A DNA stretch of 64,000 bases, taken from positions 1-64,000 of the forward strand of contig NZ_JAOTBE010000007.1 of NCBI RefSeq assembly GCF_026162645.1. Direction: 5' to 3'. The notes under the pieces were generated by a model. That model was not told the origin of the DNA and ran no database searches. It saw only the letters and a list, made by a program, of their open reading frames with translations. How positions within the stretch are numbered: the first letter of the stretch is position 1; each line of letters starts with the position of its first letter. This DNA is from Paracoccus rhizosphaerae (GTDB taxonomy: Bacteria; Pseudomonadota; Alphaproteobacteria; Rhodobacterales; Rhodobacteraceae). The translations under genes and the position numbers were made by a program. Shown here one piece after another: positions 7,661 to 22,615 of this stretch.

Positions 7661-7795
7661 CGCCCTGCAAGCCGATCTTGCAGCGGAACGGGACGCGGAA
7701 TGAGCGTTATCTTTGGCATCCGTCTCAGCACTCTAGCGTCTGTCCATCACCTCACATCTTGGCTAAAGTGGCTCCAACTTGGGAAGGAACTCGCC

Positions 7796-7999
7796 ATGCA
7801 GAGCATGTCGGCGCGCGATGCAAAAAACGCCTTCGGGCGGCTGATTGACATGGCGAGGGCAGAGCCTGTTGCCATTGAAAAGTATGGCCGGTCTGTTGTC
7901 GTGGTGCTTGCAGTTGAAGAGTTCGAGCGGCTGACGGCCAAAGCGAAGAAGCAGATGGTTTCTGCGGCATCGGGCAAGTGCCCGGGGCAAGGCGACTGA
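7796..7999 (+). CDS. Phd/YefM-type antitoxin, no partner toxin seen
   Basis: A 67-residue protein with the Phd fold signature: MSARDAKNAFGRLIDMAR, then EPVAIEKYGRSVVVVLAVEEFERL. Such proteins bind operator DNA with their N-terminus and neutralise a toxin with the C-terminus. GGAAGGAA precedes ATG 7796 at good spacing. No Doc- or RelE-like toxin gene is adjacent; hsdM follows 46 bp downstream. It may act as a regulator of the restriction operon or as a leftover antitoxin. Confidence 0.85.
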   Translation: MQSMSARDAKNAFGRLIDMARAEPVAIEKYGRSVVVVLAVEEFERLTAKAKKQMVSAASGKCPGQGD

Positions 8000-8045: not shown

Positions 8046-10052
8046 ATGCCTAGCCACTCGGACTTGGCGAACTTGATCTGGCAGATCGCGGACGTCCTGC
8101 GCGGGCCCTATCGTCCGCCACAGTATGAGCGCGTCATGCTGCCGCTTGTCGTTCTGCGCCGCTTCGATTGCGTGCTCGCCAACACCAAGGACCAGGTTCT
8201 GGCAGAGTATGCGCGGCGCAAGGGCGGGAAGCTGGAGGACGATGCTCTCGACCGGATTCTGAACAAGGCATCCGGACACCGCTTCCACAATCGTTCGCCA
8301 ATGACGTTCCAGACGATGATTGGCGACACCCCAAACCTCGCGGGGCACCTTCAATCTTACATCAGCGGCTTCTCGGCGAACGTTCGCAGGATCTTCGAGT
8401 ACTTCGAATTCACCAACGAAATCGAGAAGATGAACGAGGCGAACATCCTCTACCTCGTGCTGAAGGAGTTCCTGAAGGTAGACCTTCATCCTGACCGGGG
8501 CGTCGGGAACGAAAAGATGGGGCTCATTTTTGAGAACCTGATCCGACGCTTCAACGAACTGGCAAACGAGACCGCCGGCGATCACTTCACGCCGCGAGAG
8601 GTGATCCACCTCATGGTTGATCTCCTGTTCATGGAAGCCGACGACGTGCTCAGCAAGCCAGGCACCGTGATGCGCATGCTCGACCCGGCGTGCGGCACGG
8701 GGGGCATGCTCGCCGAGGCCCAGCGCTACATGCGCGATCACCACAAGGAGGCGAAGCTCTACGTCTACGGCCAGGACTACAACAAGCGCGCCTTCGCGAC
8801 GGCCGCATCCGACATGCTCATGAAGCAGGTCGACCACAACGGCGGCGGTGAGAACGTGCAGTACGGCGACAGCTTCACCGACGACAAGTTCGAGGGGCAG
8901 ACCTTCGACTACTTCATCGCCAACCCGCCCTTCGGCGTGGACTGGAAGAAGCAGCAAAAGGAAATCGTCCGGCGGCACGAGAAGGCCCCGCAGGACAGCC
9001 CGTGGAGCGCAGGCCTACCGCGCGTGAACGACGGCTCCTTGCTGTTCCTGCAGCACATGATCTCGAAGTTCGAGGACGTCGATCCGAAGTCGCAGAAATA
9101 TGGCTCGCGGGCGGCAATCGTGTTCTCAGGCTCACCTCTGTTCAACGGGGGCGCAGGCGGTGGCGAAAGCAACATCCGCAAGTGGATCATCGAGCGCGAC
9201 ATGCTCGAGGCCATCGTCGCCCTTCCTGAGCAGATGTTCTACAACACCGGGATTGGCACCTACATCTGGATCGTTACAAACAACAAGCCTGACCACCGCA
9301 AGGGCACAATCCAGCTGGTCGACGCGCGCGACATCTGGATGCCCATGGGCCGCAGCCAGGGAGACAAGCGCCGCAAGATCGGCGCGGGCAAGGCCCCCGA
9401 AGGGGATGATCGCCCGGACGAACCTGATCAGATTGCCGAGATCGTGCGCCTCTACGGCGGGTATGCCCAGAGCGCCAAGTCCAAGATCTTCGACAATGCC
9501 GACTTCGGCTTTACCCGCGTCACCGTCGATCGTCCGCTGCGGCTGAGCTACCGGATGACGGTCGAGGACAAAGCCCGGTTCCTCGACGCGGCACCGCACC
9601 TGCTCGACGACATCCAGGCGATCGACCAGGCGCTGGGACGCGAGCTGGAATTAGATTGGAACGAGGTCTGGAGCAGTATCGAGGAGCTGTTGAAAAAGCG
9701 AGGGTCCCGCTGGCGCGCGCCAGAGGTCAAGCTGTTCCGCAACGTGTTCACCAAGAAGGAAGCGGATGCCGAGAAGGTCAAGCAGGGCGAGGGATTCGAG
9801 GCCGACCCCGACCTGCGCGACTTCGAGAACGTGCCCCTGAAAGAGGATATCCACGCCTACTTCGCGCGCGAAGTTCTGCCGCATGTTCCGGATGCCTGGA
9901 TGGACCGAAGCAAACACAGGGTTGGCTACGAGATTAACTTCAACCGCCACTTCTATCAGTTCACGCCGCCCCGCAGGCTGGCCGACATCGACGCAGACCT
10001 GAAGAGGGCAGAGGACGAAATCTTGCGGCTTTTGCGCGAGGTAACGGAATGA
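8046..10052 (+). CDS. hsdM: type I restriction-modification methyltransferase subunit
   Basis: The 668-residue modification subunit methylates adenine at the site chosen by HsdS, using S-adenosylmethionine. The N-terminal helical HsdM domain spans about residues 5-140. SAM-binding motif I DPACGTGGM lies near 212 and catalytic motif IV NPPF near 296. The C-terminal extension (about 480-668) is long, as in the larger HsdM subfamily. It begins the operon hsdM-hsdS-ptuA-ptuB-hsdR and overlaps hsdS by 4 bp. Confidence 0.95.
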   Translation: MPSHSDLANLIWQIADVLRGPYRPPQYERVMLPLVVLRRFDCVLANTKDQVLAEYARRKGGKLEDDALDRILNKASGHRFHNRSPMTFQTMIGDTPNLAGHLQSYISGFSANVRRIFEYFEFTNEIEKMNEANILYLVLKEFLKVDLHPDRGVGNEKMGLIFENLIRRFNELANETAGDHFTPREVIHLMVDLLFMEADDVLSKPGTVMRMLDPACGTGGMLAEAQRYMRDHHKEAKLYVYGQDYNKRAFATAASDMLMKQVDHNGGGENVQYGDSFTDDKFEGQTFDYFIANPPFGVDWKKQQKEIVRRHEKAPQDSPWSAGLPRVNDGSLLFLQHMISKFEDVDPKSQKYGSRAAIVFSGSPLFNGGAGGGESNIRKWIIERDMLEAIVALPEQMFYNTGIGTYIWIVTNNKPDHRKGTIQLVDARDIWMPMGRSQGDKRRKIGAGKAPEGDDRPDEPDQIAEIVRLYGGYAQSAKSKIFDNADFGFTRVTVDRPLRLSYRMTVEDKARFLDAAPHLLDDIQAIDQALGRELELDWNEVWSSIEELLKKRGSRWRAPEVKLFRNVFTKKEADAEKVKQGEGFEADPDLRDFENVPLKEDIHAYFAREVLPHVPDAWMDRSKHRVGYEINFNRHFYQFTPPRRLADIDADLKRAEDEILRLLREVTE

Positions 10053-11281
10053 CCGCTTTTACTCATAAGCAGCTCAGATTCTTGTTTTCGATTTCGAGCG
10101 GCGCCACACCAGAGAGTGGGAACTCTGCATTCTGGGACGGCGACATCAATTGGGCAACGCCCGAAGATGTTAGTGGCAGCTCGAAGACCCTCTCATCAAC
10201 GAAACGAAAGATAACAGAAGAAGGCTTCGCAAGCTGCAGCGCAAAGATGGCACCTTCCGGCACGATTGTGCTCACCAAACGCGCACCGATCGGGCAGATG
10301 GTGATTTCAAATGTGGAACTTTGCTGCAATCAGGGCTGCTTCCTTTTGGAGCCAAAAAATAATGCCGATAATGACTTCTTTTATTATTGGTTGAGCGTTC
10401 AAATCGGATATCTGCAAGTATTGGGGCGGGGATCCACATTTATGGAACTCAGTTCTGATGAGATAAAGGCGATTCAAGCGCCCTGCATACCTGTCACTCA
10501 ACAGAAGCAGATCTCAAGCTTTCTCAATCGCGAGACCGCCGAGGTCGACGCCCTGATCTCTGCCAAGCAGAAGCTGCTCGACCTAATGACCGAGAAGCGG
10601 TGCGCCATTGTGACCGAGGCCGTCATGTGTGGCCTCGACCCTTCCGCGCCCCTGCGCCCCTCAGGCATCAACTGGCTTGGCGATATCCCTGCGCAATGGG
10701 AGGTGGAGCGCTCCCGCTGGCTGTTCACCGAACGTGACCAGCGATCCCAGACCGGCGAAGAGGAAATGCTGACGGTCTCGCACCTGACCGGCGTCACCCC
10801 CCGGTCCGAGAAGGACGTGAACATGTTCGAGGCCGAAAGCACGGCTGGCTACAAGCTGTGCTTCGCCGGGGACCTCGCCATCAACACCCTCTGGGCGTGG
10901 ATGGGCGCCATGGGCACCGCCCGCGTCGCTGGCATCGTCAGCCCCGCCTACAACGTCTACACCCCGGGTCCGCGCCTGCTGCCCGATTACGTCGATGCTC
11001 TGGTCCGCATCCCCGTCTTCGCGCAGGAAGTGACCCGCTACTCCAAGGGCGTCTGGTCCTCCCGCCTGCGGCTCTACCCCGAGGGCTTCTTCGAGACCTG
11101 GTGGCCCGTGCCGCCGCTCGATGAACAGCAACAGATCGTTGAGCACATCTCAGCAGAAACAGCCAAGATCGACCGCCTCCGAACCGCAATCGAGAACTCC
11201 ATAGCCCTGCTGAAAGAGCGCCGCGCAGCCTTGATCGCAGCGGCCGTGACGGGCCAGCTCGAGATTCCGGAGGCGGCATGA
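10049..11281 (+). CDS. hsdS: type I restriction-modification specificity subunit
   Basis: The 410-residue subunit determines which bipartite DNA site is methylated or restricted. Two target-recognition domains are visible: one ending at [20 protein letters not shown] (about residue 165) and one starting at [19 protein letters not shown] (about 208) and ending at [10 protein letters not shown]. Each is followed by a conserved coiled-coil spacer. The DNA of the first recognition domain (about 10080-10500) is clearly AT-richer than that of the second (10680-11120), suggesting exchange of one half. The start overlaps hsdM and the stop overlaps ptuA, both as ATGA. Confidence 0.94.
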
Positions 11282-12624
11282 AGATCGCGAGGCTGTCGCT
11301 CGCCAATGTTCGAGCATTCAAAGAGGCGGAGTTCACCTTCAATCCTGGCTTCAACCTGATTATCGGTATCAACGGCGCCGGTAAAAGCACAGTACTCGAT
11401 GCCATCAGATACTGTGGCTCCCACCTGCTTTCAAATCTTGAGAAAAAGATGCCTCTTAGGGCGTTTGGCTTTGGTATCAATGATATTCACGGCAGCGCGC
11501 CTTTCGCCGAGGCCGCGTTGTATTTGCATCACAATGGCAATGCGGATGCGTTTGTCCGCCTGCGCGAATGGCGGGAGCAGGTCGCTGCCGAGGCCACAGA
11601 GAACGTGGAACGTTTGCGTCGTGAGATCCTCGAAACAGAGCGCCCAAGGGATCGACTGCGTACCCAGTTGCGCGAGTTACAGGAAACCATCTCGCCGGCG
11701 GAACCCGTCTTCTTTCACCCCTCAAAGCATGACCTAATGGCTCGGGCGATCAGTAAAGGAAGCATGCCGTTAATGATCCACTACTCAACCGCACGATCGA
11801 TCATGAACGAGCAGGCAGGACGAACGCAGGCAATTGGAGACTGGCGTGCTGCCTATGTGAACGCACTTCAGTCGAACGCCCTTAGCATCCGCCAGTTCGC
11901 CGTCTGGGTGCGCGCACTAAGTGCAATGGCTTCTGAACTCCCCGCCTCGGGGCATCTTTTAGATAGGATAAACTCTGCGCTTGAGCTTTTTCTGCCTGGC
12001 TATTCAAACTTGCGACCAACAGCTGAAAACACTTCACGTGTTGAGATCGACAACAACGGAACGACTCTTGATGTACGCCAGTTGTCGGACGGCCAGCGCA
12101 GCGTGTTGGTGCTCGTTCTGGATATCGCGAAACGTCTCGCGCAGGCTAACCCTCAGCTAAATGACCCGTTGACCAACGCTGAAGCCGTGATCCTCATCGA
12201 CGAGATCGACCTTCACCTTCATCCGCAATGGCAGCGGAAAATCGTGGGCAATCTCGAAAAAACGTTCCCGAATTGCCAATTCATTGCCACTAGCCATTCA
12301 CCGCAGATCATTGGGGAAGTACAGCCGGATAAGATTACTCTCTTAAAACGGGTTGATGGACATATTTCCCTTGAGCCGTGTGGTCAATCCTATGGCCTAG
12401 ATACAAACTATGTGCTCGAACAGGTCATGGAAACACCTTCACGGTCGAAACCCGTAAAAGCTGCGATCGATGAAGTGGAGAGTGCGCTGGAAATTGGAGA
12501 CTTAGATCTGGCGCGGGAAAAGTTGTCAATTTTGCGTAAGATTCAACATGGAGATGACCCGACTACGGTTGGGTTTGAGGCCGAAATAAACAATCTAGAA
12601 GCGCTGACAGATGAGGCAGATTAG
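11278..12624 (+). CDS. ptuA: Septu-like ATPase (PtuA family, AAA_15/SMC-like)
   Basis: A 448-residue ABC/SMC-type ATPase. Walker [10 protein letters not shown] lies near residue 34, an ABC signature-like RQLSDGQRS near 270, Walker [18 protein letters not shown] near 303-318 and a TSHSPQI switch near 338. A coiled region ([19 protein letters not shown]) is inserted near 120. Paired directly with an HNH nuclease it matches Septu (PtuA-PtuB), an anti-phage system in which the ATPase controls the nuclease. It overlaps hsdS by 4 bp and ptuB by 14 bp. It could instead be another Rlo-type restriction-linked ATPase, but the partner supports Septu. Confidence 0.82.
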
Positions 12625-13297
12625 CAAGAGCGCACCGCCACCCGAGCTTACGGAGTGGATCGCCGCCAACAGAAATGGCCCCAATTGCAACTATGACTCA
12701 ATTGGAGGGGATTTGCGGCAGATCATCAGGCAAGCGCTTGTATCCGAGCAGGGTGGACTCTGCGCGTACACTGGTTGCAAGATTGATGTCGATACTTGCC
12801 ACATCGAGCATTTGAAGCCGCAAAAGCATTGCAGTGCCCTAGAAGACGTAGCCTACTCAAATCTTGCTGCGGCCGTACCGAAGCCTAATACAGGAATAAA
12901 GTTCCCGTATGGAGCACATTTGAAGGACAATTGGCCTTCGCCGGACGAGTCCACCTTATTTGTTTCACCACTTTCAATTGGTTGTTCGGCCAGATTCTCA
13001 TTTAGCTTCAGCGGTAAAATCTCGGCAAGCAATGTAACGGATAGTGCCGCAGACGAGACCATTAAGCGTTTGGGTTTGAATCACAATACTCTTATCAAGT
13101 TTCGGCACGCTGCTATCAAAGGGACGATTAAACTGCGGGGCCGTGATTTAGATGTAAAAACGGCACGGCGACGACTTGAAGACTTGCAACAGAAAGAGAG
13201 GACATCGAACGAGTTAGAGGCATTCTCCGTTGCGCTTATCGACGCGCTGAAGAAGCATATCGCCCGGCTTAAAAAAATCAGAGAAAAGAAAAAGTAA
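12611..13297 (+). CDS. ptuB: Septu-like HNH nuclease (PtuB / TIGR02646-like)
   Basis: A 228-residue HNH endonuclease. The opening [25 protein letters not shown] near 54-62, HIEHLKPQ near 64-71 and NLAAAVP near 85 reproduce the PtuB/TIGR02646 layout (Cys pair, HxxH, Asn). The middle [13 protein letters not shown] also fits the family. The very basic C-terminus ([15 protein letters not shown]) suits nucleic-acid binding. The ptuA-ptuB DNA is less GC-rich than hsdM and hsdR. The stop overlaps the hsdR start (TAATG), so the pair is translated as part of the restriction operon. Confidence 0.8.
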
Positions 13298-16200
13298 TGG
13301 ACGATGCTCGGCATTCAGAAGGAGCCTTCGAGACCGTCATCGAAGCCACATTGCTGGCAAATGGCGCGCTAAGGGAACCTGCATCGGGGTACGACCGTGA
13401 TCGTGCCATCTTTCCTGAGAGCGTTCTCTCCTTCATCCGCAACACACAGCCGAAGGAATGGAAGGCGCTGGAGGCACTCCATGGGGAAAAGACCGGCGCC
13501 CAAGTTCTTGCCGATCTGACCAAGTGGATGGACCGGGAGGGCTCTTTGGCCACCTTGCGTCACGGCTTCAAGTGCTATGGCAAGACTCTGCGCGTTGCAT
13601 TTTTCAAGGCTGCGCACGGGCTGAACCCGGAGTTGGAGGCCCGCTACGCCGCTAACCGCGTCGGGCTCACGCGGCAACTGCACTTCTCGAGGAGCTCCGA
13701 AAGGTCCCTGGACGTCGTACTGAGCGTCAATGGCATTCCAGTTGTGTCGGTCGAGCTCAAGAACCCGATGACTGGACAGACCGTCGAGCACGCCCTGCAC
13801 CAGTACCGGCATGATCGCGACCCGCGCGAGCCCATCTTTGAGTTTAAGCGGCGTATGCTGGTCCACTTTGCCGCCGACACGGACACAGTGTTCATGTCCA
13901 CCCGGCTTGCCGGTGCGGCCACCCACTTCCTGCCCTTCAACAAAGGCAACAACGGCGGCGCCGGCAATGGGCCCGATCCCGAGGGACGAAGCTACCGCAC
14001 AGCGTATCTGTGGGAGGAGGTGCTGCAGCGAGACAGCCTGCTCGACCTCCTCGCGCGCTTTATCCATCTCCAAGTCGAAGATAGGCGCGACGACCAAGGA
14101 CGAAGGGTCAGGAAGGAAACGATGATCTTTCCGCGCTACCACCAGCTTGAAGCGGTCCGGTCGTTGATCGATCAAACGCTAAAAGATGGGGTTGGCAACA
14201 ACTATCTGATCGAGCACTCGGCTGGCAGCGGAAAGAGCAACACCATCGGCTGGCTGACGCACAGGCTTGCATCGCTGCATGATCATGCCAACTCGCGTGT
14301 TTTCGACAGTGTTATCGTCATCACTGACCGCGTGATCCTAGACAAGCAGCTTCAGGACACGATCTACCAGCTCGAACATAAGCACGGCGTTGTCCAGAAG
14401 ATCGACGAGGACTCGCGTCAGCTGGCGGAAGCACTCGAAAGTGCCGTGCCGATCATCATCACCACCCTTCAGAAGTTTCCATTCGTCTCGCGTCAGTTGG
14501 CCAAGATTGCCGAAGAACGAGGAGAGGCCGACGGAGGTGTGCTAAGGATGCGCCGCTGTGCGGTGATCATCGATGAGGCGCACAGCTCGCAGGGCGGCGA
14601 GACGGCAACTGACCTCAAGGAAGTTCTTGGCGGGCAAACCCTTCGCGAAGAGGCTGCTCGAGCAATGGTCGCCAATAACGAGGACGACATGGACGAATTA
14701 TATCGGTCCATGGCTAAACGCGGAAGGCAAGCAAACCTGAGTTTCTTCGCGTTCACGGCCACGCCGAAACACAAGACGCTCAAGGTGTTCGGGCGCGACG
14801 GCAAGCCCGCCCATCGCTACACAATGCGCCAAGCGATAGAGGAAGGCTTCATACTCGACGTGCTGAAGCACTACACGACCTACGCCACCTATTTCCGGCT
14901 GCTCAAGGCGAGCGAGGACGATCCGAACGTCGAGCGGAAGAAGGCGGCACGCGCTCTGGCGCGGTTCCTCAAGCTGCATCCTCACAACATCGCTCAGAAA
15001 ACTGAGGTGATGATCGAGCATTTCCACGCTGCGACGCGGCATAAGATCGGTGGCCGAGCCAAGGGAATGGTGGTGACAGGTTCGCGCCTCGAAGCTGTTC
15101 GCTACAAACAGATTTTCGATCGCTACGTGAAGGAGAAAGGCTATGCTATCAAATCGCTGGTCGCCTTCTCAGGCGTAGTCACGGATGACAAGCTTAAGGA
15201 TGTCACCTACACTGAGGAGGGCATGAACCTCGGCGTGCGTGAGAAGGAACTGCCGGAGGTCTTCGCCACGCAGGAATATCAGGTGCTCCTCGTTGCCGAG
15301 AAGTACCAGACCGGCTTCGATCAACCCTTGCTGCACACCATGTATGTCGATCGGCGGCTCGCCGGCATCCAAGCGGTGCAGACGCTGTCTCGCCTGAACC
15401 GTATCCACCCGTTAAAGGAGGACACGTTCGTCCTCGATTTCGTCAACGATCGCGATGAAATTCGCGAGGCGTTCAAGAGATACTACGAAGGCGCGGAGGT
15501 CGGCGAAGACGTCGACCCTGCTCGAATGTATGAGATCAAGAGCGAGCTCGACGCGGAAGGTGTATACGGCGTCGCCGACCTTGAGCGTTTTAGTGCGGTA
15601 TACTTCAAGCCTCGCCAGCGCCAGAGCCCGAACGATCATCAGTTGATGAATGCTGCGATCGATCCTTGCGTCGCGCGTTTCAAAGAGCTTCTGGAGGAGA
15701 AGCCCGACGAGGCCGAGCTGTGGCGCGGCAAGCTGATGGCCTTCTGCGGCCTCTATGGTTTTGTCAGCCAGATCATTCCCTATCAAGACACGGATCTCGA
15801 ACGCCTGTATGTTTTCCTTCGGCATCTCGCGTCCAAGCTTCCGAAGTTCAGCGTCGGCCCATCCTACCAGTTTGATGACGAAGTACGGCTAGAGTATTAC
15901 CGGTTACAGAAAATCAGCGAAGGCTCGATCAACCTTAGCGACGGTCAGGCTAATAGGCTTGATGGCCCGTCCGAAGTCGGTACCGGCGTGCTGCACGAAG
16001 AAGCGGTCTCGTTGTCGCGGCTGATCGATGTCGTCAACGACCGGTTCGGCACTGACTTCAATCAGGCGGATCAGCTCTTCTTCGACCAAATCATAGAAGC
16101 AGCGACCCTCGATGCAGCCTTGAGGCAAGCGGCGGCCGTCAATCCTGGCGACAAGTTCGAACTCGTGTTTAAGAACCTGCTTGAGGCACTGTTTGTTGAA

Positions 16201-16365
16201 CGCATGGATCAGAACGAGGAGATCTTCGCGCGGTTCATGAACGACAAATCGTTCCAGAAGGTCGTTACGGGCTGGCTGTCTTCGGAGGCTTATCGCAAGC
16301 TCAACAGCTCGGAAAAAGCTCAAAACATCAGGAAACTTGACGCCTCCCTGCGCATCCCTACGTGA
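13297..16365 (+). CDS. hsdR: type I restriction endonuclease subunit
   Basis: The 1022-residue motor and nuclease subunit cleaves unmodified DNA after ATP-driven translocation. The N-terminal PD-(D/E)xK nuclease shows DVVLSVNGIPVVSVELKNP near 140-155. The helicase core shows Walker A HSAGSGKSN near 307, DEAH-type IIDEAHSS near 424, FTATPKHKT near 487 and motif VI-like QTLSRLNR near 695. The C-terminal helical region contacts the methyltransferase core. ATG overlaps the ptuB stop by one base. Length and motifs indicate a full, functional gene. Confidence 0.95.
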   Translation: MDDARHSEGAFETVIEATLLANGALREPASGYDRDRAIFPESVLSFIRNTQPKEWKALEALHGEKTGAQVLADLTKWMDREGSLATLRHGFKCYGKTLRVAFFKAAHGLNPELEARYAANRVGLTRQLHFSRSSERSLDVVLSVNGIPVVSVELKNPMTGQTVEHALHQYRHDRDPREPIFEFKRRMLVHFAADTDTVFMSTRLAGAATHFLPFNKGNNGGAGNGPDPEGRSYRTAYLWEEVLQRDSLLDLLARFIHLQVEDRRDDQGRRVRKETMIFPRYHQLEAVRSLIDQTLKDGVGNNYLIEHSAGSGKSNTIGWLTHRLASLHDHANSRVFDSVIVITDRVILDKQLQDTIYQLEHKHGVVQKIDEDSRQLAEALESAVPIIITTLQKFPFVSRQLAKIAEERGEADGGVLRMRRCAVIIDEAHSSQGGETATDLKEVLGGQTLREEAARAMVANNEDDMDELYRSMAKRGRQANLSFFAFTATPKHKTLKVFGRDGKPAHRYTMRQAIEEGFILDVLKHYTTYATYFRLLKASEDDPNVERKKAARALARFLKLHPHNIAQKTEVMIEHFHAATRHKIGGRAKGMVVTGSRLEAVRYKQIFDRYVKEKGYAIKSLVAFSGVVTDDKLKDVTYTEEGMNLGVREKELPEVFATQEYQVLLVAEKYQTGFDQPLLHTMYVDRRLAGIQAVQTLSRLNRIHPLKEDTFVLDFVNDRDEIREAFKRYYEGAEVGEDVDPARMYEIKSELDAEGVYGVADLERFSAVYFKPRQRQSPNDHQLMNAAIDPCVARFKELLEEKPDEAELWRGKLMAFCGLYGFVSQIIPYQDTDLERLYVFLRHLASKLPKFSVGPSYQFDDEVRLEYYRLQKISEGSINLSDGQANRLDGPSEVGTGVLHEEAVSLSRLIDVVNDRFGTDFNQADQLFFDQIIEAATLDAALRQAAAVNPGDKFELVFKNLLEALFVERMDQNEEIFARFMNDKSFQKVVTGWLSSEAYRKLNSSEKAQNIRKLDASLRIPT

Positions 16366-16380
16366 AAGACGTTACTTAAG

Positions 16381-17295
16381 TTGAAGCCTCGTTCGATCAA
16401 CATCTTCCTTCTTGATGGCGACCCAAATGGCATTCGGGTGGCACAAATCTCAATGTCGACGATCCAAGCAATTGCCTTCCGGCGAAACCAACTTAAACGT
16501 GTCTGCAATGCGTTCCCCGAAATCGAGCGGCCCGGCGTGTATGTGCTGATCGGCGGAGACGAGAACGAGCCTGACCGCCAGCTCGCTTATATCGGCGAGT
16601 CGGAGGGTGTGGGTGCGAGGCTGTCCTATCATAACTCGAACGAGACGGGTCGCGACGCCAAAAGCTTCTGGACTGACACAGTGGTCCTTATCAGCAAGGA
16701 TGAGAACCTCACGAAGAGCCATGCGCGCTACGTCGAAGCCTGCCTGATCAGGGGTGTGGGAAGCAATCCGCGTTGGACGATCCCTAACCTGAAGCGGCCA
16801 TCCGAGGATGCCGGAAAGCTTCCCCTGCCGGACCGCGCTGCTATGGACGAGTTCGTTGATCAGACAAAGACGCTGGTGGGCGCTCTTGGGTGGGACCTCT
16901 TTCGCGAGATGCGCGGACGCCCTGCAGAGGCGGCAGAGCCTCCGCAGTCTGTTCCCCCAATAGCTAACTCGGATGAACTTCGATTTTTCTTTCGTGGCGA
17001 GGGATTCTCCGCTGAGATGAAGCTGGGCGCATCAGGCGATTTCGTGGTCTTGGCGGGGTCAAGGGCTAGGGTGAGGACAACGACTACCATTCCGCGCGGC
17101 ACGATCGCGATGCGCCGCACCCTGCTGGATACTGCGGTGCTGCGCGAAGACGGCGACTTCCTGCTGTTCACGAGCGACTATAGCTTCACGTCGGCATCTG
17201 CTGCCGCCGCAACAGTAGTTGGCGCGAGCGCAAACGGGCGCATTCTGTGGAAATTACCGGACGGACGTACCTATGCCAATTGGGAGGCGAACTAG
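16381..17295 (+). CDS. GIY-YIG nuclease with DUF4357 domain
   Basis: A 304-residue protein starting at TTG. The N-terminus (RSINIFLLDGDPNGIRVAQI) precedes a GIY-YIG nuclease domain: GVYVLIGG near 57 and LAYIGESEGVGARL near 72-85, with a conserved Glu later. The C-terminal 60 residues form DUF4357 (DYSFTSASAAAATVVG, then SANGRILWKLPDG). Proteins of this design often accompany type I restriction loci; their substrate is unknown to me. The TTG start is accepted because the conserved N-terminus begins there. It lies 15 bp behind hsdR in the same direction. Confidence 0.85.
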   Translation: MKPRSINIFLLDGDPNGIRVAQISMSTIQAIAFRRNQLKRVCNAFPEIERPGVYVLIGGDENEPDRQLAYIGESEGVGARLSYHNSNETGRDAKSFWTDTVVLISKDENLTKSHARYVEACLIRGVGSNPRWTIPNLKRPSEDAGKLPLPDRAAMDEFVDQTKTLVGALGWDLFREMRGRPAEAAEPPQSVPPIANSDELRFFFRGEGFSAEMKLGASGDFVVLAGSRARVRTTTTIPRGTIAMRRTLLDTAVLREDGDFLLFTSDYSFTSASAAAATVVGASANGRILWKLPDGRTYANWEAN

Positions 17296-17538
17296 GACAA
17301 CGGAAGGAATAAGAACGCGACATCCGCCGACCCGCCGGGAGAGTAGTCACAGAATGACCGATGCCGCCAACGACATTCACCTTAGCTCTGCGCAGCTGCA
17401 GGGCGCAGGCGCAGCGACGGTTAGAGCTTATATGCTAAGGATCCGGAATCGAAGCCTCCCACGATAAGCATAGCATACAATGACGAGAACGAACAGTTTC
17501 ACGGTGAAATTGATCGCCGCAGCATTGGAGTGGGAGTG
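17296..17538 (+). promoter_or_regulatory. intergenic region before mcrB with a palindrome
   Basis: This gap holds a perfect palindrome, TTTCAC-G-GTGAAA, at 17497-17509, 29 bp before the preferred mcrB start: a candidate operator. A 37-codon ORF (17354-17467, MTDAANDIHLSS...) is possible but has no supporting evidence. The gap separates the hsd operon from mcrBC, so mcrBC probably has its own promoter here. Confidence 0.4.
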
Positions 17539-19740
17539 ATGCCAGCAGACTCAGGAACAAGGCCTGCTTGGTTTGTCGGCGCCGCCTACAACCGAACCGA
17601 GGACCAGACGCCCCGGTTTCTTGCCGAGGGCATCTGGGAGAACGGCTACGATGACGGGTCATATGGCGACCTGGTGCGCGCCATGCGGCCGGGGGACAGG
17701 ATCGCGATCAAGTCCTCCTACACCCGCAAGCACGGCCTGCCCTTCGATAACCGCGGTTCCACCGTCTCGGTGATGGCCATCAAGGCGATCGGAACGATTA
17801 CCTCGAACCTCGACGACGGCAAGCATGTGCGGGTCGACTGGACGCCGGCCGAGTCGCCCCGCGAATGGTACTTCTACACCAATCGCGCGACGGTCTGGCG
17901 GGTCGCGCCGGGGGGCTGGATGGAGGACGGGCTGTTGGCCTTCGCTTTCGACGCCCGGCCCCAGGACATCGACCGCTTCCGGAACGAGCCCTTCTGGCGC
18001 GAGCGGTTCGGCGACATCGACGTCGAGCGTCGGTTCTGCTGGACGGGGTTCTACCGCGCGGTCGCGGCGAAGCTGCTCGATTACCGGGCAGACCGGCGTC
18101 CGCTGATCGAGGGCATCCATGCCATCGCAAAAAACACGGCAGGTCTCAGCTATCTGCAGGACCGCTATCCCGAAGGCGGAACCGGGCCACTGCGCGACAT
18201 CTGCCCCTTCACGGCGATGGGCACGTTCAACCGCTCGATGACAGACGCCAACCGGCGCCTGATTGCAGGAGCGCTGGCGAAGCTGATCGGCGTGGAGGAA
18301 GAGCCGCCCGCTTCCTTCGAGGGCATTCCTATCCTGAACAACCAGCGGTCCTGGTTCTTCCGTTACGGCGACAAACGCGGCGAAGGCGACATCGATCGGC
18401 TATGGGATGTGTTCGCGGCGGCCGCGGCCCTCGTGGAGACCGATCAGCCGGAGCTTCGTGCGGCGTTCATCGAGGCCTACGACGCTGCAGTGCAGGTCTG
18501 GGGGGCCTCGTGGAACCTCTCGACGGGTCTTTACTGGTCGCACCCCTGGGAGTTCCCGACCCTGGACAGCAACTCGCGCACCTTCCTCACGGATCGGCTC
18601 CAGCTGAAAATCCCGGTTATGGGGCCGCAGAAGCCCTGCAGCGGCGCGACCTACCTCAAGCTCGTAGACGAGCTGAATGCGCGCTTCGGCGAGGAAAGCT
18701 ATCCCGTGCACAGCTTTCCCGAGCTTTCGCTGGCCTCTTGGCACCACAAGTCGCCCGAGGATATGCAGCATGCGCCCGACGAGGGGGCGCCGGCTGTGAC
18801 CGGGGATGAGGACGAGGCCGCCGTTGAGCCCGTCCAGTTACCCGCGCCTGTGGAGCCCTATGACGTCGATGACATCCAGCGGGACGGGTGCTTTCTGGAG
18901 CGCGCCGAGATCGAGCGTCTTCTGGAACGTCTGCGCATGCGCAAGAACCTGATCCTGCAGGGGCCGCCGGGGACGGGCAAGACCTGGATCGCAAAGCGCC
19001 TAGCGTTCGCACTGATGGGCGAGCGCGACGAGGCGCGCGTCCGGGCCGTCCAGTTCCACCCGAACCTGTCCTACGAGGATTTCGTGCGCGGATGGCGTCC
19101 CGGCGGCGATGGCAAGCTGACCCTCGCCGACGGCGTCTTCATGGAGGCGATCCACGCAGCGCTTAGCCGGCCTGAGGCCCGCTTCGTCGTGATCATCGAG
19201 GAGATCAACCGCGGGAACCCCGCACAGATCTTCGGGGAGCTGCTGACCCTGCTGGAGGCAGGCAAGCGCACGCCGCGCGAGGCGCTCGAACTCTGCTATC
19301 CCGACGGCGACGGCGTGCGCCGCCCGGTGCATGTGCCGGAGAACCTGTTCGTCATAGGCACCATGAACATTGCCGACCGCTCGCTGGCGCTCGTCGACTT
19401 CGCCTTTCGCAGGCGCTTCGCCTTCATCGGGCTCGAGCCGCGTCTCGGGCCGGCCTGGCGGCGCTGGGTGACCGAGAAGGGGGGTGTCGAGCCAGCCCTC
19501 GCGGACGACATCGAAAAGCGCATCCTCGCGCTGAACGCCCGGATCGCCGAGAGCTTCGGCCGACAGTTCGAGATCGGGCACAGCTACGTCACGCCGACCG
19601 CGAAGCTTGAACCGGGGACGACGCGGGAGTGGTTCCGCCAGGTGGCCGAAACGGAAATCGGCCCGCTGCTCGAAGAATACTGGTTCGATGCCCCGAAATT
19701 GGCGCGCGAGGCCGTCGAGAAGCTGCTGCAGGGATGGTGA
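17539..19740 (+). CDS. mcrB: McrB-type AAA+ GTPase with EVE-like N-terminal domain
   Basis: The 733-residue motor of a modification-dependent restriction system. The first ~115 residues (PAWFVGAAYNR, GDRIAIKSSYTRKHG, VRVDWTP) look like an EVE/PUA-like pocket for reading modified bases, in place of the E. coli McrB reader. The AAA+ domain has Walker A GPPGTGKT near 475, Walker B VVIIEEINRGN near 550 and GTMNIADRSLALVDFAFRRR near 608, the McrB nucleotide-specificity and arginine-finger region (NIAD where E. coli has NTAD). ATG 17539 is preferred, with GGAG upstream; GTG codons at 17530 and 17536 are alternatives. It overlaps mcrC by 7 bp. Confidence 0.9.
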   Translation: MPADSGTRPAWFVGAAYNRTEDQTPRFLAEGIWENGYDDGSYGDLVRAMRPGDRIAIKSSYTRKHGLPFDNRGSTVSVMAIKAIGTITSNLDDGKHVRVDWTPAESPREWYFYTNRATVWRVAPGGWMEDGLLAFAFDARPQDIDRFRNEPFWRERFGDIDVERRFCWTGFYRAVAAKLLDYRADRRPLIEGIHAIAKNTAGLSYLQDRYPEGGTGPLRDICPFTAMGTFNRSMTDANRRLIAGALAKLIGVEEEPPASFEGIPILNNQRSWFFRYGDKRGEGDIDRLWDVFAAAAALVETDQPELRAAFIEAYDAAVQVWGASWNLSTGLYWSHPWEFPTLDSNSRTFLTDRLQLKIPVMGPQKPCSGATYLKLVDELNARFGEESYPVHSFPELSLASWHHKSPEDMQHAPDEGAPAVTGDEDEAAVEPVQLPAPVEPYDVDDIQRDGCFLERAEIERLLERLRMRKNLILQGPPGTGKTWIAKRLAFALMGERDEARVRAVQFHPNLSYEDFVRGWRPGGDGKLTLADGVFMEAIHAALSRPEARFVVIIEEINRGNPAQIFGELLTLLEAGKRTPREALELCYPDGDGVRRPVHVPENLFVIGTMNIADRSLALVDFAFRRRFAFIGLEPRLGPAWRRWVTEKGGVEPALADDIEKRILALNARIAESFGRQFEIGHSYVTPTAKLEPGTTREWFRQVAETEIGPLLEEYWFDAPKLAREAVEKLLQGW

Positions 19741-20855
19741 GCGCCGCGGCAGATCTGTTGCAGGGGGCTGCCGGGGCCACGGGCTTCATCGGGCGCATCC
19801 CCGTGCGCAACATCTGGCTGCTGATGCTCTACGCGTCGGATCTGCTGCAAACGTCGGAGCGCGCGCTGGTCGACGCGGAACGCAACCCCGACGAGATCGC
19901 CGACCTCGTCGCGCGGCTGCTGACACAGGCTGTGGAGGAGCGACAACGCCGGCAGCTGAGCCTCGGCTATAGGCCACGCAGCGCGGACCTCTCGCGCGTG
20001 CGGGGCCGGATCGACGTCCTGCGCACCGAGCGCCGTCAGCTGCTCGCGCGCGGCACGGTGGCCTGTCGCTACGTCGAACTTAGCGCCGACACGCCACGCA
20101 ACCGCTTCGTTCGCGGTGCGCTGGAAACGGTGGCGCGACTGGTGTCGCACCCAGAGCTGCGCCATCGCTGCCGTCGCCTCGCTGCGGACATGCAGGCGCT
20201 GGGTGTCTCGCGTGCGATGCCGTCGCGGAGCGAACTCAGTGCCGACCGCATCGGGCGACACGACGCGGCGGATCGCGAGATGCTGGCGGCGGCGAAGCTG
20301 GCGATGGACCTCGTCCTACCCACCGAGCAGGCGGGCTCAAGACCCCTGCCGATGCCGGATCGGGAGGAGCAATGGGCGCGACGGCTGTTCGAGCGGGCGG
20401 TGGGCGGCTTCTACCGCGCGATGCTGCCGCCTTCGCGCTGGGAGGTGCGCACGGGCCGTCCGCTCGACTGGCCGCTCGACTGGTGCACCGGCGGCGCGCG
20501 GGACATCTTGCCGGGCATGCGGACCGACGTCGTGCTGGACGATCTGGTCGCGGGCCGGCGCATCGTGATCGACACCAAGTTCACCGGGATCGTCACGGCC
20601 GGCTGGCGGCGCGAAACCACGCTGCGCAGCGCCTACCTCTATCAGATCTACGCCTACCTCCGGTCGCAGACCGGGCGTGGCGACTCGCTGGCCGACAGCG
20701 CCGAGGGCCTGCTGCTGCACCCCGCCATCGGCGAAACGGTCGACGAGGCGATCAAAGTACATGGCCACGGCATCCGTTTCGCCACTGTGGATCTCGCCGC
20801 CGACAGCGCCGCGATCCGTGCGCAGCTTCTTGACAGGTCATTGAAAAGCTCGTGA
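19734..20855 (+). CDS. mcrC: McrC nuclease subunit
   Basis: A 373-residue partner of McrB that cleaves DNA beside modified sites. It has the McrC start (GRIPVRNIWLLMLYAS), a central RVRGRID and LSADTPRNRFV region, and a C-terminal PD-(D/E)xK nuclease visible as MRTDVVLDD near 262-270 and RIVIDTKF near 275-282. ATG lies 7 bp inside mcrB, so the two are translationally coupled. GC content is high and similar to mcrB, above the ptuAB genes. Confidence 0.92.
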   Translation: MVSAAADLLQGAAGATGFIGRIPVRNIWLLMLYASDLLQTSERALVDAERNPDEIADLVARLLTQAVEERQRRQLSLGYRPRSADLSRVRGRIDVLRTERRQLLARGTVACRYVELSADTPRNRFVRGALETVARLVSHPELRHRCRRLAADMQALGVSRAMPSRSELSADRIGRHDAADREMLAAAKLAMDLVLPTEQAGSRPLPMPDREEQWARRLFERAVGGFYRAMLPPSRWEVRTGRPLDWPLDWCTGGARDILPGMRTDVVLDDLVAGRRIVIDTKFTGIVTAGWRRETTLRSAYLYQIYAYLRSQTGRGDSLADSAEGLLLHPAIGETVDEAIKVHGHGIRFATVDLAADSAAIRAQLLDRSLKSS

Positions 20856-21058: not shown

Positions 21059-22615
21059 TCAGCTTGACGTCTTGAAGTTCCAAGGCAGCAGATCGTCGAG
21101 CCGGCTTTGCGGATGACCGTTGGCAATGGCCTGCAGGGTTGCCTTGAGGTAGGCGAATGGCTCGATGCCGTTGATCTTGCAGGTCTCGATCAGCGAAGCG
21201 ATGCGACCCCAGGCGATGCCGCCTTCGTCGTGGCCTGCGAAGAGTGCATTCTTGCGATTGAGGGCAATAGGACGGATCAGATTTTCGACCCGATTGGAGT
21301 CGATCTCGACGCGACCGTCGGCCAGGAAGGTCTGCAACCCGTCCCAATGGTTGTGGATATAGGCGAGCTTCTCGCCGAGCCGGGATTTGACGGAGATCCT
21401 GCGGCGCTGAGCTTGCAGCCACTCTCCGAAGGCGGCGACCAGCGGCGCGGTGCGGGTCTGGCGGGCTGACAGGCGCTGACCGGCTGAGATGCCGCAGATA
21501 TCGGCTTCAACGGCATAGAGTTCAGCAATGCGGCGCAAGCCCTCGGCGGCGATCTCTGATCCGTCTCTGTCAAAGACTTCCTTCAGTTTGCGTCGTGCGT
21601 GAGCCCAGCAATGCGCCACATGAACAGGGGCACCGCCCTTGCGCGAGGACCGCGTCAGCCGGTTGTAGCCGGGATACCCATCGATCTGCAGAATGCCATC
21701 GAAGCCTGACAGGAAGGTCTCGGCATTCTCTCCCGCGCGACCGGAGGCGTAGAAGTAGACCACGCCGGGCGGGTCATCGCCGCCCCAAGGCCGATCATCT
21801 CGGGCGAGAGCCCAGAGATATCCTGTCTTTGTCGTGCCGCGCCCCGGATCCAGAACCGGCGCGGCGGTTTCGTCCATGAACAACTTGCCGGACCGCTTCA
21901 GATGGTCCGCCAGTCTGTCCACCACCGGCTTCAAATGGAACGCGGCCTTGCCGACCCAATCGGCAAGCACGATACGATGCAGCTCAAGGCCGGCCCGCGC
22001 CAGGATCTGGCTTTGGCGATACAAGGGCAGATGGTCCGCATATTTGCTCACCAGCACATGGGCGAGGGTCGCCTCCGTGGGCAAGCCACCCATGATCAGG
22101 TGGGAGGGCGCCGGTGCCTGGGTCACCCCATCGGTGCAGGTCCGGCAGGCATACTTGGGGCGCACGGTGACGATGACACGCAGTTGCGCCGGGACAATGT
22201 CCAGTCGCTCTGTGCGGTCTTCGCCGATCTTGTGCATGACACCGCAGCCACAGGGGCAGTTCAGGCTGTCGGGCTCGATGACCTCCTCAATGCGAGGAAG
22301 TGTGATGGGAAGGTTGCCGATGGTGCGCTTGGGAGCGGGTCTGGTTGCTCCGTCACCTGCTTTGGCCGCGCGCTTTTCCTTTTCCGCCTCAACCTCGGCC
22401 AGGGCGATGGACAGATCCTCAAACGCCAGTTGCCGCTCGTCCTCGGACAGCTTTTCCGACCGCTTGCCATGCAGGGCATGGTTCAATTCGGCAATCAGAT
22501 GCTCTTGCCGCCGGGTGATGTCCTTGAGCGCAGCCACCTCTTCCATCAGCGCCTGAACCGCCGCACGCTGCGCGGCAGGGATGGCGGAAAGATCGAGGAC
22601 AGGGGCGGCTTGCAT
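21059..22615 (-). CDS. tnpC: IS66-family transposase TnpC
   Basis: The 518-residue DDE transposase. It has an N-terminal leucine-rich helical region (EEVAALKDITRRQEHLIAEL), a zinc-finger-like CPCGCG block near 120, then the catalytic residues in KLFMDETAAPVLDPG (Asp near 250), QIDGYPGYN (Asp near 320) and NRVENLIRPIALNRKN (Glu near 450), plus the C-terminal IS66 tail (CKINGIEPFAYLKATL). It is intact and is the last gene of the IS66 operon. Confidence 0.95.
   Translation of the reverse strand: MQAAPVLDLSAIPAAQRAAVQALMEEVAALKDITRRQEHLIAELNHALHGKRSEKLSEDERQLAFEDLSIALAEVEAEKEKRAAKAGDGATRPAPKRTIGNLPITLPRIEEVIEPDSLNCPCGCGVMHKIGEDRTERLDIVPAQLRVIVTVRPKYACRTCTDGVTQAPAPSHLIMGGLPTEATLAHVLVSKYADHLPLYRQSQILARAGLELHRIVLADWVGKAAFHLKPVVDRLADHLKRSGKLFMDETAAPVLDPGRGTTKTGYLWALARDDRPWGGDDPPGVVYFYASGRAGENAETFLSGFDGILQIDGYPGYNRLTRSSRKGGAPVHVAHCWAHARRKLKEVFDRDGSEIAAEGLRRIAELYAVEADICGISAGQRLSARQTRTAPLVAAFGEWLQAQRRRISVKSRLGEKLAYIHNHWDGLQTFLADGRVEIDSNRVENLIRPIALNRKNALFAGHDEGGIAWGRIASLIETCKINGIEPFAYLKATLQAIANGHPQSRLDDLLPWNFKTSS

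Follow-up and report, generated by a model that had tools for sequence, protein, structure and literature searches.

A Septu PtuA–PtuB pair embedded between hsdS and hsdR in one lineage of type I restriction–modification operons

Why should the two genes of one anti-phage system lie inside the operon of another? The question is raised by a stretch of 64,000 nucleotides (nt) from Paracoccus rhizosphaerae (contig NZ_JAOTBE010000007.1, positions 1 to 64,000; hereafter the window), in which the genes of a type I restriction–modification (RM) system and of a Septu pair, PtuA and PtuB (together PtuAB), follow the order hsdM–hsdS–ptuA–ptuB–hsdR, head to tail on the + strand. A preliminary description made from the sequence alone had placed a Septu-like pair inside a five-gene operon and suggested a functional link between the two systems; its coordinates and overlaps for the pair are exact, and its identification of the pair and operon is borne out by PADLOC profiles, fold, and gene order. 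The three hsd genes are all intact open frames in one operon, as befits a type I RM system. Successive genes overlap by 4 nt (hsdM/hsdS), 4 nt (hsdS/ptuA), 14 nt (ptuA/ptuB), and 1 nt (ptuB/hsdR), from which translation would be coupled across the operon. The genes are as follows:

8046..10052, + strand: hsdM, type I DNA methyltransferase, 668 amino acids (aa), N6_Mtase match
10049..11281, + strand: hsdS, specificity subunit, 410 aa, Methylase_S match
11278..12624, + strand: ptuA (PtuA1), ABC-type ATPase, 448 aa; its ATG falls within the 4-nt overlap with the end of hsdS
12611..13297, + strand: ptuB (PtuB1), HNH nuclease, 228 aa; shares 14 nt with ptuA and 1 nt with hsdR (TAATG)
13297..16365, + strand: hsdR, type I restriction subunit, 1022 aa, HSDR_N match

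The pair is a Septu module (PtuA1/PtuB1) embedded in an RM operon. PtuA matches the PADLOC PtuA1 model PDLC00271 with 374.8 bits over residues 1 to 445, and PtuB matches the PtuB1 model PDLC00346 with 209.5 bits over residues 1 to 218 and passes the cut-off of TIGR02646 (59.6 bits against 52.15). Residues G35, K36, S270, G272, D308, E309, and H340 of PtuA are invariant in a 26-sequence alignment, and we take them to be the Walker A, signature, Walker B, and H-loop residues of the ATPase that defines Septu type I. The HNH residues of Septu type I are likewise present in PtuB, where H64, E66, H67, and N84 are invariant among 28 aligned sequences. Structures predicted from alignments of the window and related proteins (mean predicted local distance difference test score 95.9 for PtuB and 85.0 for PtuA) resemble solved PtuB (8eea_G, template modeling (TM) score 0.67) and solved PtuA (9e90, TM 0.72–0.74; 8eea_D, TM 0.69). 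The likeness to Septu type I thus comprises near full-length models, the residues of both enzymes, and both folds. The pair differs in that it is not a free-standing two-gene operon but lies between hsdS and hsdR and overlaps both, for which reason we term it an RM-embedded Septu module, and in that the window PtuB has Thr in place of the second Cys of its HNH CxxC motif (residues 51–54). Thr or Ser occupies this position in the type I loci of one PtuB alignment (A2); PtuB of the bacteriophage exclusion (BREX) type reads CCYC and that of retron Ec78 reads CAYC, and two nested PtuB proteins (loci L190 and L193) retain the second Cys. Metal binding by a PtuB that lacks it may differ.

Retrons of type I-A (Ec78/Eco7 and Ec83/Eco4) share the fold and pairing of PtuA and PtuB. 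A retron reading of the window pair is ruled out by its neighbors, hsdS and hsdR, by the lack of an adjacent reverse transcriptase (RT), and by the NCBIfam retron equivalogs, which match below their cut-offs (242.7 of 500 bits for PtuA and 80.1 of 150 for PtuB); the window PtuA, at 448 aa, also differs from the ≈550 aa of retron PtuA. A crude RT motif scan upstream of those loci of the PtuB census (below) that have the pair on the + strand gave no candidate, and no PrrC/RloC anticodon-nuclease domain is among the Pfam or NCBIfam matches of PtuA or PtuB.

Is the nesting private to this strain, as the preliminary description allowed? A plasmid of another genus, a survey by HsdR, and a census by PtuB all reject this. 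A conjugative plasmid of Ketogulonicigenium vulgare carries the same five genes in the same order with the same 4-, 14-, and 1-nt overlaps around the pair; over the alignable 80% of the operon, its nt identity to the window is 83.6%. Plasmid records with an HsdR match number 751, and the four above 60% identity, all from K. vulgare, were typed and have the PtuAB arrangement; the other 747 fall below 60%. In the survey, the window HsdR served as the query and loci were chosen irrespective of PtuAB (E limits 1e-50 to 1e-250) from overlapping sets of genomes (385 from the class, 321 from the order, 398 from the phylum, and 125 from the genus) and from IMG/VR; the counts therefore rest on the window's phylum and IMG/VR, include some near-copies, and are uncorrected for kinship. 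Ninety HsdR loci were typed; for 13, longer sequence around the same site was used. Where HsdR is at least 66% identical to that of the window, PtuAB occupies the hsdS–hsdR slot in 13 of 14 loci, window included; at one locus (genome G1080, L196) only ptuB is visible, at a contig edge. Where HsdR is less than 60% identical (76 loci), the slot is seen up to hsdS in 61 and partly in 15; PtuAB is in none of the 61, and the PtuA profile has no match in any of the 76. The gap between hsdS and hsdR is shorter than 1,843 nt, the smallest gap that holds PtuAB, in 59 of the 61, so that an unrecognized pair is possible in two of these slots at most.

A tree of 35 HsdR rows, some picked by PtuB and some by HsdR, and with L092 and L014 left out as copies of L149 and L189, has one 29-row clade with support 100/100. 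PtuB is present in 28 of its rows and absent from one (L194). When PtuB is sorted into six clusters by single linkage at 45%, which may merge distant types, the types change 10 times on this tree by parsimony (L024, outside the clade, included). Judged from these comparisons, PtuAB has long resided in one HsdR lineage, and we hold it highly probable that the pair is the resident effector cassette of that lineage of type I RM operons.

The preliminary description had proposed a census of PtuAB inside hsd operons. Genome contigs were scanned with a PtuB alignment, and the best 80 of 194 relatives were typed by local profiles, with the type III and BREX neighbors of some checked by Pfam; these 80 are the nearest relatives of the window pair and do not give frequencies for Septu at large. 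IMG/VR held three PtuB relatives, too few for such a census. In 19 of the 80, hsd genes adjoin PtuAB, with hsdS before and/or hsdR after and in no other slot: both sides are seen in 14 (L024, L030, and L032 have extra genes between), hsdS only in three (L018, L019, and L040, the last at a contig end), and hsdR only in two (L035 and L045, both at contig starts). The 19 come from Alphaproteobacteria, Cyanobacteria, Chloroflexi (Oscillochloris, Chloroploca, and Anaerolineae), Verrucomicrobia, a Desulfobacterales bacterium, Polaromonas, and a Gemmatimonadetes bacterium. BREX-like operons hold the pair in 14 of the 80, with pglZ downstream in 12 and only an upstream PglX-type gene in L054 and L090 (a 24-bit PglZ match in L063 was excluded), and type III genes stand beside it in three, between mod and res in L020 and L022 and before mod in L039. 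No such neighbor was found in 44, several of them on short contigs. Placement between modification and restriction genes is thus common to the type I operons, type III operons (L020 and L022), and BREX-like operons. At one BREX-like locus, from Macromonas (L054 1–10431), a PglX-type gene, an OLD-like and UvrD-like pair (Gabija-like, by eye), ptuAB, and a GmrSD-like gene stand in a row.

On a PtuA plus PtuB tree of 91 rows, made by a quick method and with some long branches, the type I label needs at least five changes against a shuffled mean of 22.7, which indicates that nesting arose, or was lost, several times; 13 of the 14 BREX-like rows cluster separately from those of type I. Left out of this tree were L017 and L042 (broken pairs), L093 (no pair), and L006 (the same place as L096). 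The overlap of hsdS with ptuA is 4 nt in 8 of 17 loci compared, and that of ptuB with hsdR is 1 or 4 nt in 10 of 15, figures biased toward short overlaps because each start was set at the start codon closest to the preceding stop; the remaining loci have gaps of up to 990 nt in the same order of hsdS, ptuA, ptuB, and hsdR. Septu is therefore not always the stand-alone system that it was first taken for, given its retron type I-A, BREX, and RM contexts. The functional link proposed at the outset gains an association beyond chance, from the 13 of 14 close HsdR loci as against none of 61 distant ones, from the nesting in type III and BREX operons, and from the several PtuAB branches involved.

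What else occupies this slot? The assumption that hsdM, hsdS, and hsdR are normally contiguous does not always hold at the hsdS–hsdR junction, which is often filled: among the slots with HsdR less than 60% identical, at least 294 nt separate the two genes in 37 of 61. Sister HsdR slots carry TIR (PDC-S35), Fic, YhcG, and HD proteins by Pfam, GmrSD- and AlbA_2-like genes by local profiles, and DarTG-like genes by eye. Within a sister HsdR group (≈53–58% identity), a protein of 195 to 218 aa, alike by eye from locus to locus, is found repeatedly in the hsdS–hsdR slot. Neither of the two tested (L123 and L154) has a Pfam match, and that of L123 matches PD-T4-4 and PDC-M47B only weakly; this protein is a candidate unnamed effector. 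The positions are:

Slot occupants other than PtuAB: L151 5206–5967, L157 4777–5910, L161 4855–5943, L139 158–1474, L194 1914–5523, L113, L115, and L155
Slot protein of 195–218 aa: L123 4448–5035, L128, L129, L154 5341–5988, L156, L157, and L172

If the pair has long been resident, what has changed within the operon? The window and K. vulgare operons are 0.73 to 0.93 identical in most 150-nt blocks across the five genes and diverge in two places, in hsdS at 10051–10500 (≈0.5) and from the start of ptuA to ≈12450 (0.50–0.66). The first of these corresponds to the first target-recognition part of hsdS (≈10049–10550), which is exchanged between the two operons, the remainder of hsdS being conserved. 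A congener (G653, L190) departs from the window in the pair itself: HsdM is 95% identical, HsdS 92% in both recognition parts, and HsdR 92%, whereas PtuA is 34% and PtuB 28% identical pairwise (≈21% and ≈18% in a joint alignment), and nt identity drops at the hsdS/ptuA border and recovers just past the ptuB/hsdR border. The L190 pair is still PtuA1/PtuB1, with PtuB model PDLC00315, and L191 has a third PtuB model, PDLC00322.

Such borders bear on a further explanation of the nesting, that the hsdS–hsdR junction is a recombination hot spot for any defense cargo and that PtuAB persists there merely through shared donors and recipients. Exchange at the hsdS/ptuA and ptuB/hsdR borders is what this would produce, the cargo of sister slots is varied, L194 of the same lineage has Iet rather than PtuAB, and the RptR authors term the site a potential hotspot (PMC12255303). 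Despite the 10 changes of PtuB type, however, the occupant is PtuA–PtuB in 28 of 29 clade rows; PtuB was the basis of choice for many of these rows, but the loci selected by HsdR give 13 of 14. We therefore regard an effect of the slot alone as unlikely.

Identities were compared among 23 complete operons (253 pairs), after L024 and all operons in which one or more of the five proteins is missing had been set aside. HsdM and HsdR identities correlate at 0.90. PtuB follows residues 361–448 of PtuA (Spearman 0.59, Mantel p 0.002) and is little related to HsdR (0.14, p 0.10), and residues 1–225 of PtuA correlate with HsdM (Spearman 0.54) and with HsdR (0.43, p 0.004). Neither PtuA nor PtuB follows the recognition parts of HsdS (Spearman −0.03 to 0.05 for residues 1–150 and −0.06 to 0.03 for residues 200–350). 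Four operons whose HsdR proteins are 85–90% identical display all four combinations of PtuA body with PtuA tail plus PtuB; they were chosen after the identities were known, and one, L148, is an IMG/VR metagenome contig. PtuA 1–225 is common to the window and L148 (68%) and to L009 and L191 (87%), with 29–32% across these pairings, and PtuA 361–448 and PtuB are common to the window and L009 (76% and 75%) and to L191 and L148 (71% and 68%), with 27–30% and 26–32% across. The switch point lies past the conserved stretch of the H-loop: near residue 345 when L009 is compared with L191, and within 346–390 for the window. The four combinations thus indicate that two modules reassort, the PtuA body and the PtuA tail with PtuB, and on the simplest reading the tail would fit its own PtuB. 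In the window they are:

11278..12380, + strand: exchangeable module 1, the PtuA body, from sliding identity to L009, L148, and L191 and nt identity to K. vulgare; it ends between residues ≈345 and ≈390 (12313–12447), and 12380 is only the midpoint of that range
12381..13297, + strand: exchangeable module 2, the PtuA tail plus PtuB, start approximate, from correlated identities and joint exchange in the four operons

Base composition had been read as a sign of later insertion. The lower GC content is real (0.523 for ptuA and 0.489 for ptuB, against 0.607 for hsdM, 0.586 for hsdS, and 0.574 for hsdR), but a late arrival of the pair does not follow: ptuB of K. vulgare is likewise AT-rich (GC 0.512) and the pair is spread through the HsdR clade, which together rule out a simple late insertion. 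Because the pair is present clade-wide, its arrival preceded the split of these operons. The recent events are exchanges inside the slot and not the arrival of the pair, and the low GC and third-position GC (GC3) of ptuA and ptuB would fit repeated import of alleles.

What might a resident Septu pair do for a restriction operon? We take prrC, the anticodon-nuclease gene of the ecoprrI type I RM operon, to lie exactly between hsdS and hsdR. Precedents for the action of such pairs and for their embedding are given here as described in the cited papers. Septu EcB88, for which a stand-alone pair and no RM partner are described, cleaves tRNA-Tyr only upon infection and needs both active sites (PMC13096335). 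PtuAB of retron-Eco7 is toxic, depletes tRNA-Tyr, and is silenced by RT and multicopy single-stranded DNA (PMC11555353). PrrC, whose nuclease is linked to ABC ATPase motifs (PMC2610378), is embedded in ecoprrI and is released as T4 Stp blocks restriction (PMC12707154, PMC2610378). It thus resembles the window pair as an ABC ATPase-type effector within a type I RM operon, and differs in being one protein with an anticodon-nuclease domain, the window having a separate HNH protein, and in that silencing by the RM system is demonstrated for PrrC. BREX operons hold dyads of an OLD-ABC protein and an HNH protein, proposed as backup effectors (PMC12839542); they share with the window an ABC ATPase and HNH pair in a modification–restriction operon, and the BREX-like loci of the census fit them, although their host operon is BREX rather than type I RM.

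By analogy with Septu EcB88, retron-Eco7, PrrC, and the BREX dyads, PtuAB would most likely be a second-line abortive effector co-expressed with restriction. PtuAB would share one message with HsdM, HsdS, and HsdR through the overlapping genes; phage DNA that escapes or blocks restriction would lead PtuA to switch PtuB on, the least certain step; and PtuB would damage a host molecule, which in Septu EcB88 and retron-Eco7 is tRNA, so that infection aborts. The single message, the abortive action, and the RNA target are proposed on the model of these related systems. Failure or inhibition of HsdMSR as the trigger, as for PrrC, would fit the way one HsdR lineage has kept the pair and the PtuA body in part tracks Hsd, and we consider it possible, if somewhat short of probable. 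To the whole account, a resident Septu effector cassette that acts abortively when restriction fails, we give an even chance. A stronger form is put forward tentatively and with some doubt: that this RM lineage adopted Septu as a restriction-guarded suicide effector, made of two reassorting parts, which HsdMSR silences and phage inhibition releases. If so, the PrrC principle would have been invented a second time, around an unrelated nuclease, with the PtuA body as the sensor or coupler and the PtuA tail with PtuB as an interchangeable nuclease, whose target could change while the coupling is kept.

Several observations weigh against a resident, restriction-triggered effector in two modules. 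Relative to K. vulgare, residues 1–225 of PtuA are only 32% identical on a 90% identical Hsd backbone, and such replacement of the body counts against one fixed docking surface between PtuA and Hsd. The modules are not fully independent, since PtuB also correlates with PtuA 1–225 (0.41, p 0.002) and PtuA 361–448 weakly with HsdR (0.18, p 0.018). Among the loci at or above 66% HsdR identity, one (G771, L194) lacks PtuAB and carries an Iet pair (IetA–IetS) in the slot; its near relative (G855, L193) combines PtuAB with genes that resemble the Iet pair by eye. Retention could reflect homologous exchange among operons that already had PtuAB. In two cyanobacterial loci (L018 and L019), ptuAB follows hsdM and a short hsdS with hsdR absent from the operon. 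PtuAB of retron-Eco4 is toxic without a decrease in tRNA (PMC11555353), so that the RNA target may fail for the window pair. Lastly, TgvAB of Vibrio cholerae VPI-2, within a type I hsd operon, is described as protecting without HsdR restriction activity (PMC11411939).

The TgvAB case speaks for an independent layered defense, in which PtuAB senses a phage cue alone and the operon provides a shared promoter and co-travel, with no contact with or guarding of HsdMSR. Stand-alone Septu, triggered by infection, works without RM in the EcB88 study (PMC13096335), and PtuA and PtuB are replaced while HsdMSR stays 92–95% identical, as expected if the pair follows phages rather than Hsd. Independence would not account for the near-fixation of the pair in one HsdR lineage, for its absence from all 61 slots of relatives that are seen in full, or for PtuA body identities that track HsdM and HsdR; we consider it a serious contender that nonetheless falls short of being probable. 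The cyanobacterial loci suggest something else, that PtuAB serves as another nuclease arm, alongside HsdR or in its place, with HsdM–HsdS recognizing the DNA. In Planktothricoides and Planktothrix (L018 5934–8717 and L019 5868–8717) the order is hsdM, short hsdS (286 and 301 aa), ptuA, ptuB; no hsdR profile match was found in these loci, which extend ≈8 kb downstream, and the window HsdR has no match at 1e-30 in the L019 genome and one 42% match elsewhere in the L018 genome. Yet of the 18 type I census loci with an uncut downstream side, 16 have hsdR next (all but L018 and L019; as a fragment in L028), the short hsdS genes are possibly decaying, PtuA and PtuB identities are unrelated to the HsdS recognition parts, and the best studied PtuAB pairs target tRNA (PMC11555353, PMC13096335). 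We therefore judge this arrangement very improbable for the window.

Effectors inside type I hsd operons are already known. In addition to PrrC and TgvAB, published reports describe DarTG2 in an RRDM island as a two-gene unit between hsdS and hsdR (PMC12255303) and Campylobacter rlo genes as embedded in type I hsd operons (as told in PMC2610378); the BREX dyads are of like kind. DarTG2 and TgvAB share with the window pair the form of a two-gene defense unit in a type I hsd operon, their effectors being unrelated to PtuAB. TgvAB is mostly outside its five-gene operon, its homologs being 17 times commoner alone (PMC11411939), whereas PtuAB is almost always present in one HsdR lineage. A literature search, largely at the level of titles and the openings of abstracts, found among the papers listed no report of PtuAB between hsdS and hsdR or of the two-module exchange, so that an earlier report is possible. 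The locus bears on how cells sense phage-blocked restriction beyond PrrC and PARIS, and on whether one defense is embedded in another for function or by hitchhiking, in that one HsdR lineage keeps one effector class in one slot while its alleles turn over. Natural recombinants, with the same Hsd complex and different PtuAB or with the four body-by-nuclease combinations, make guarding, target choice, and module coupling testable.

The operon has neighbors on both sides. Directly upstream of hsdM is a possible further member of the operon:

7700..7999, + strand: Phd/YefM-type antitoxin gene (PF02604, TIGR01552)

It also precedes hsdM on the K. vulgare plasmid (≈89% nt identity over 7801–7950) and might regulate the operon; no toxin gene was noticed alongside, though no dedicated search was made. 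After hsdR the window encodes a DUF4357 protein (16381–17295; PADLOC candidate PDC-S14). A close homolog in P. sanguinis (L014 11761–12720) overlaps hsdR by 4 nt, and in a viral contig (L163 4345–5301) a GIY-YIG and DUF4357 protein occupies the hsdS–hsdR slot itself. Farther downstream in the window are an McrB-like and McrC-like pair of type IV restriction (17530–19740 and 19629–20855) and, beyond it, a transposase-like frame (21059–22615), IS66 by eye.

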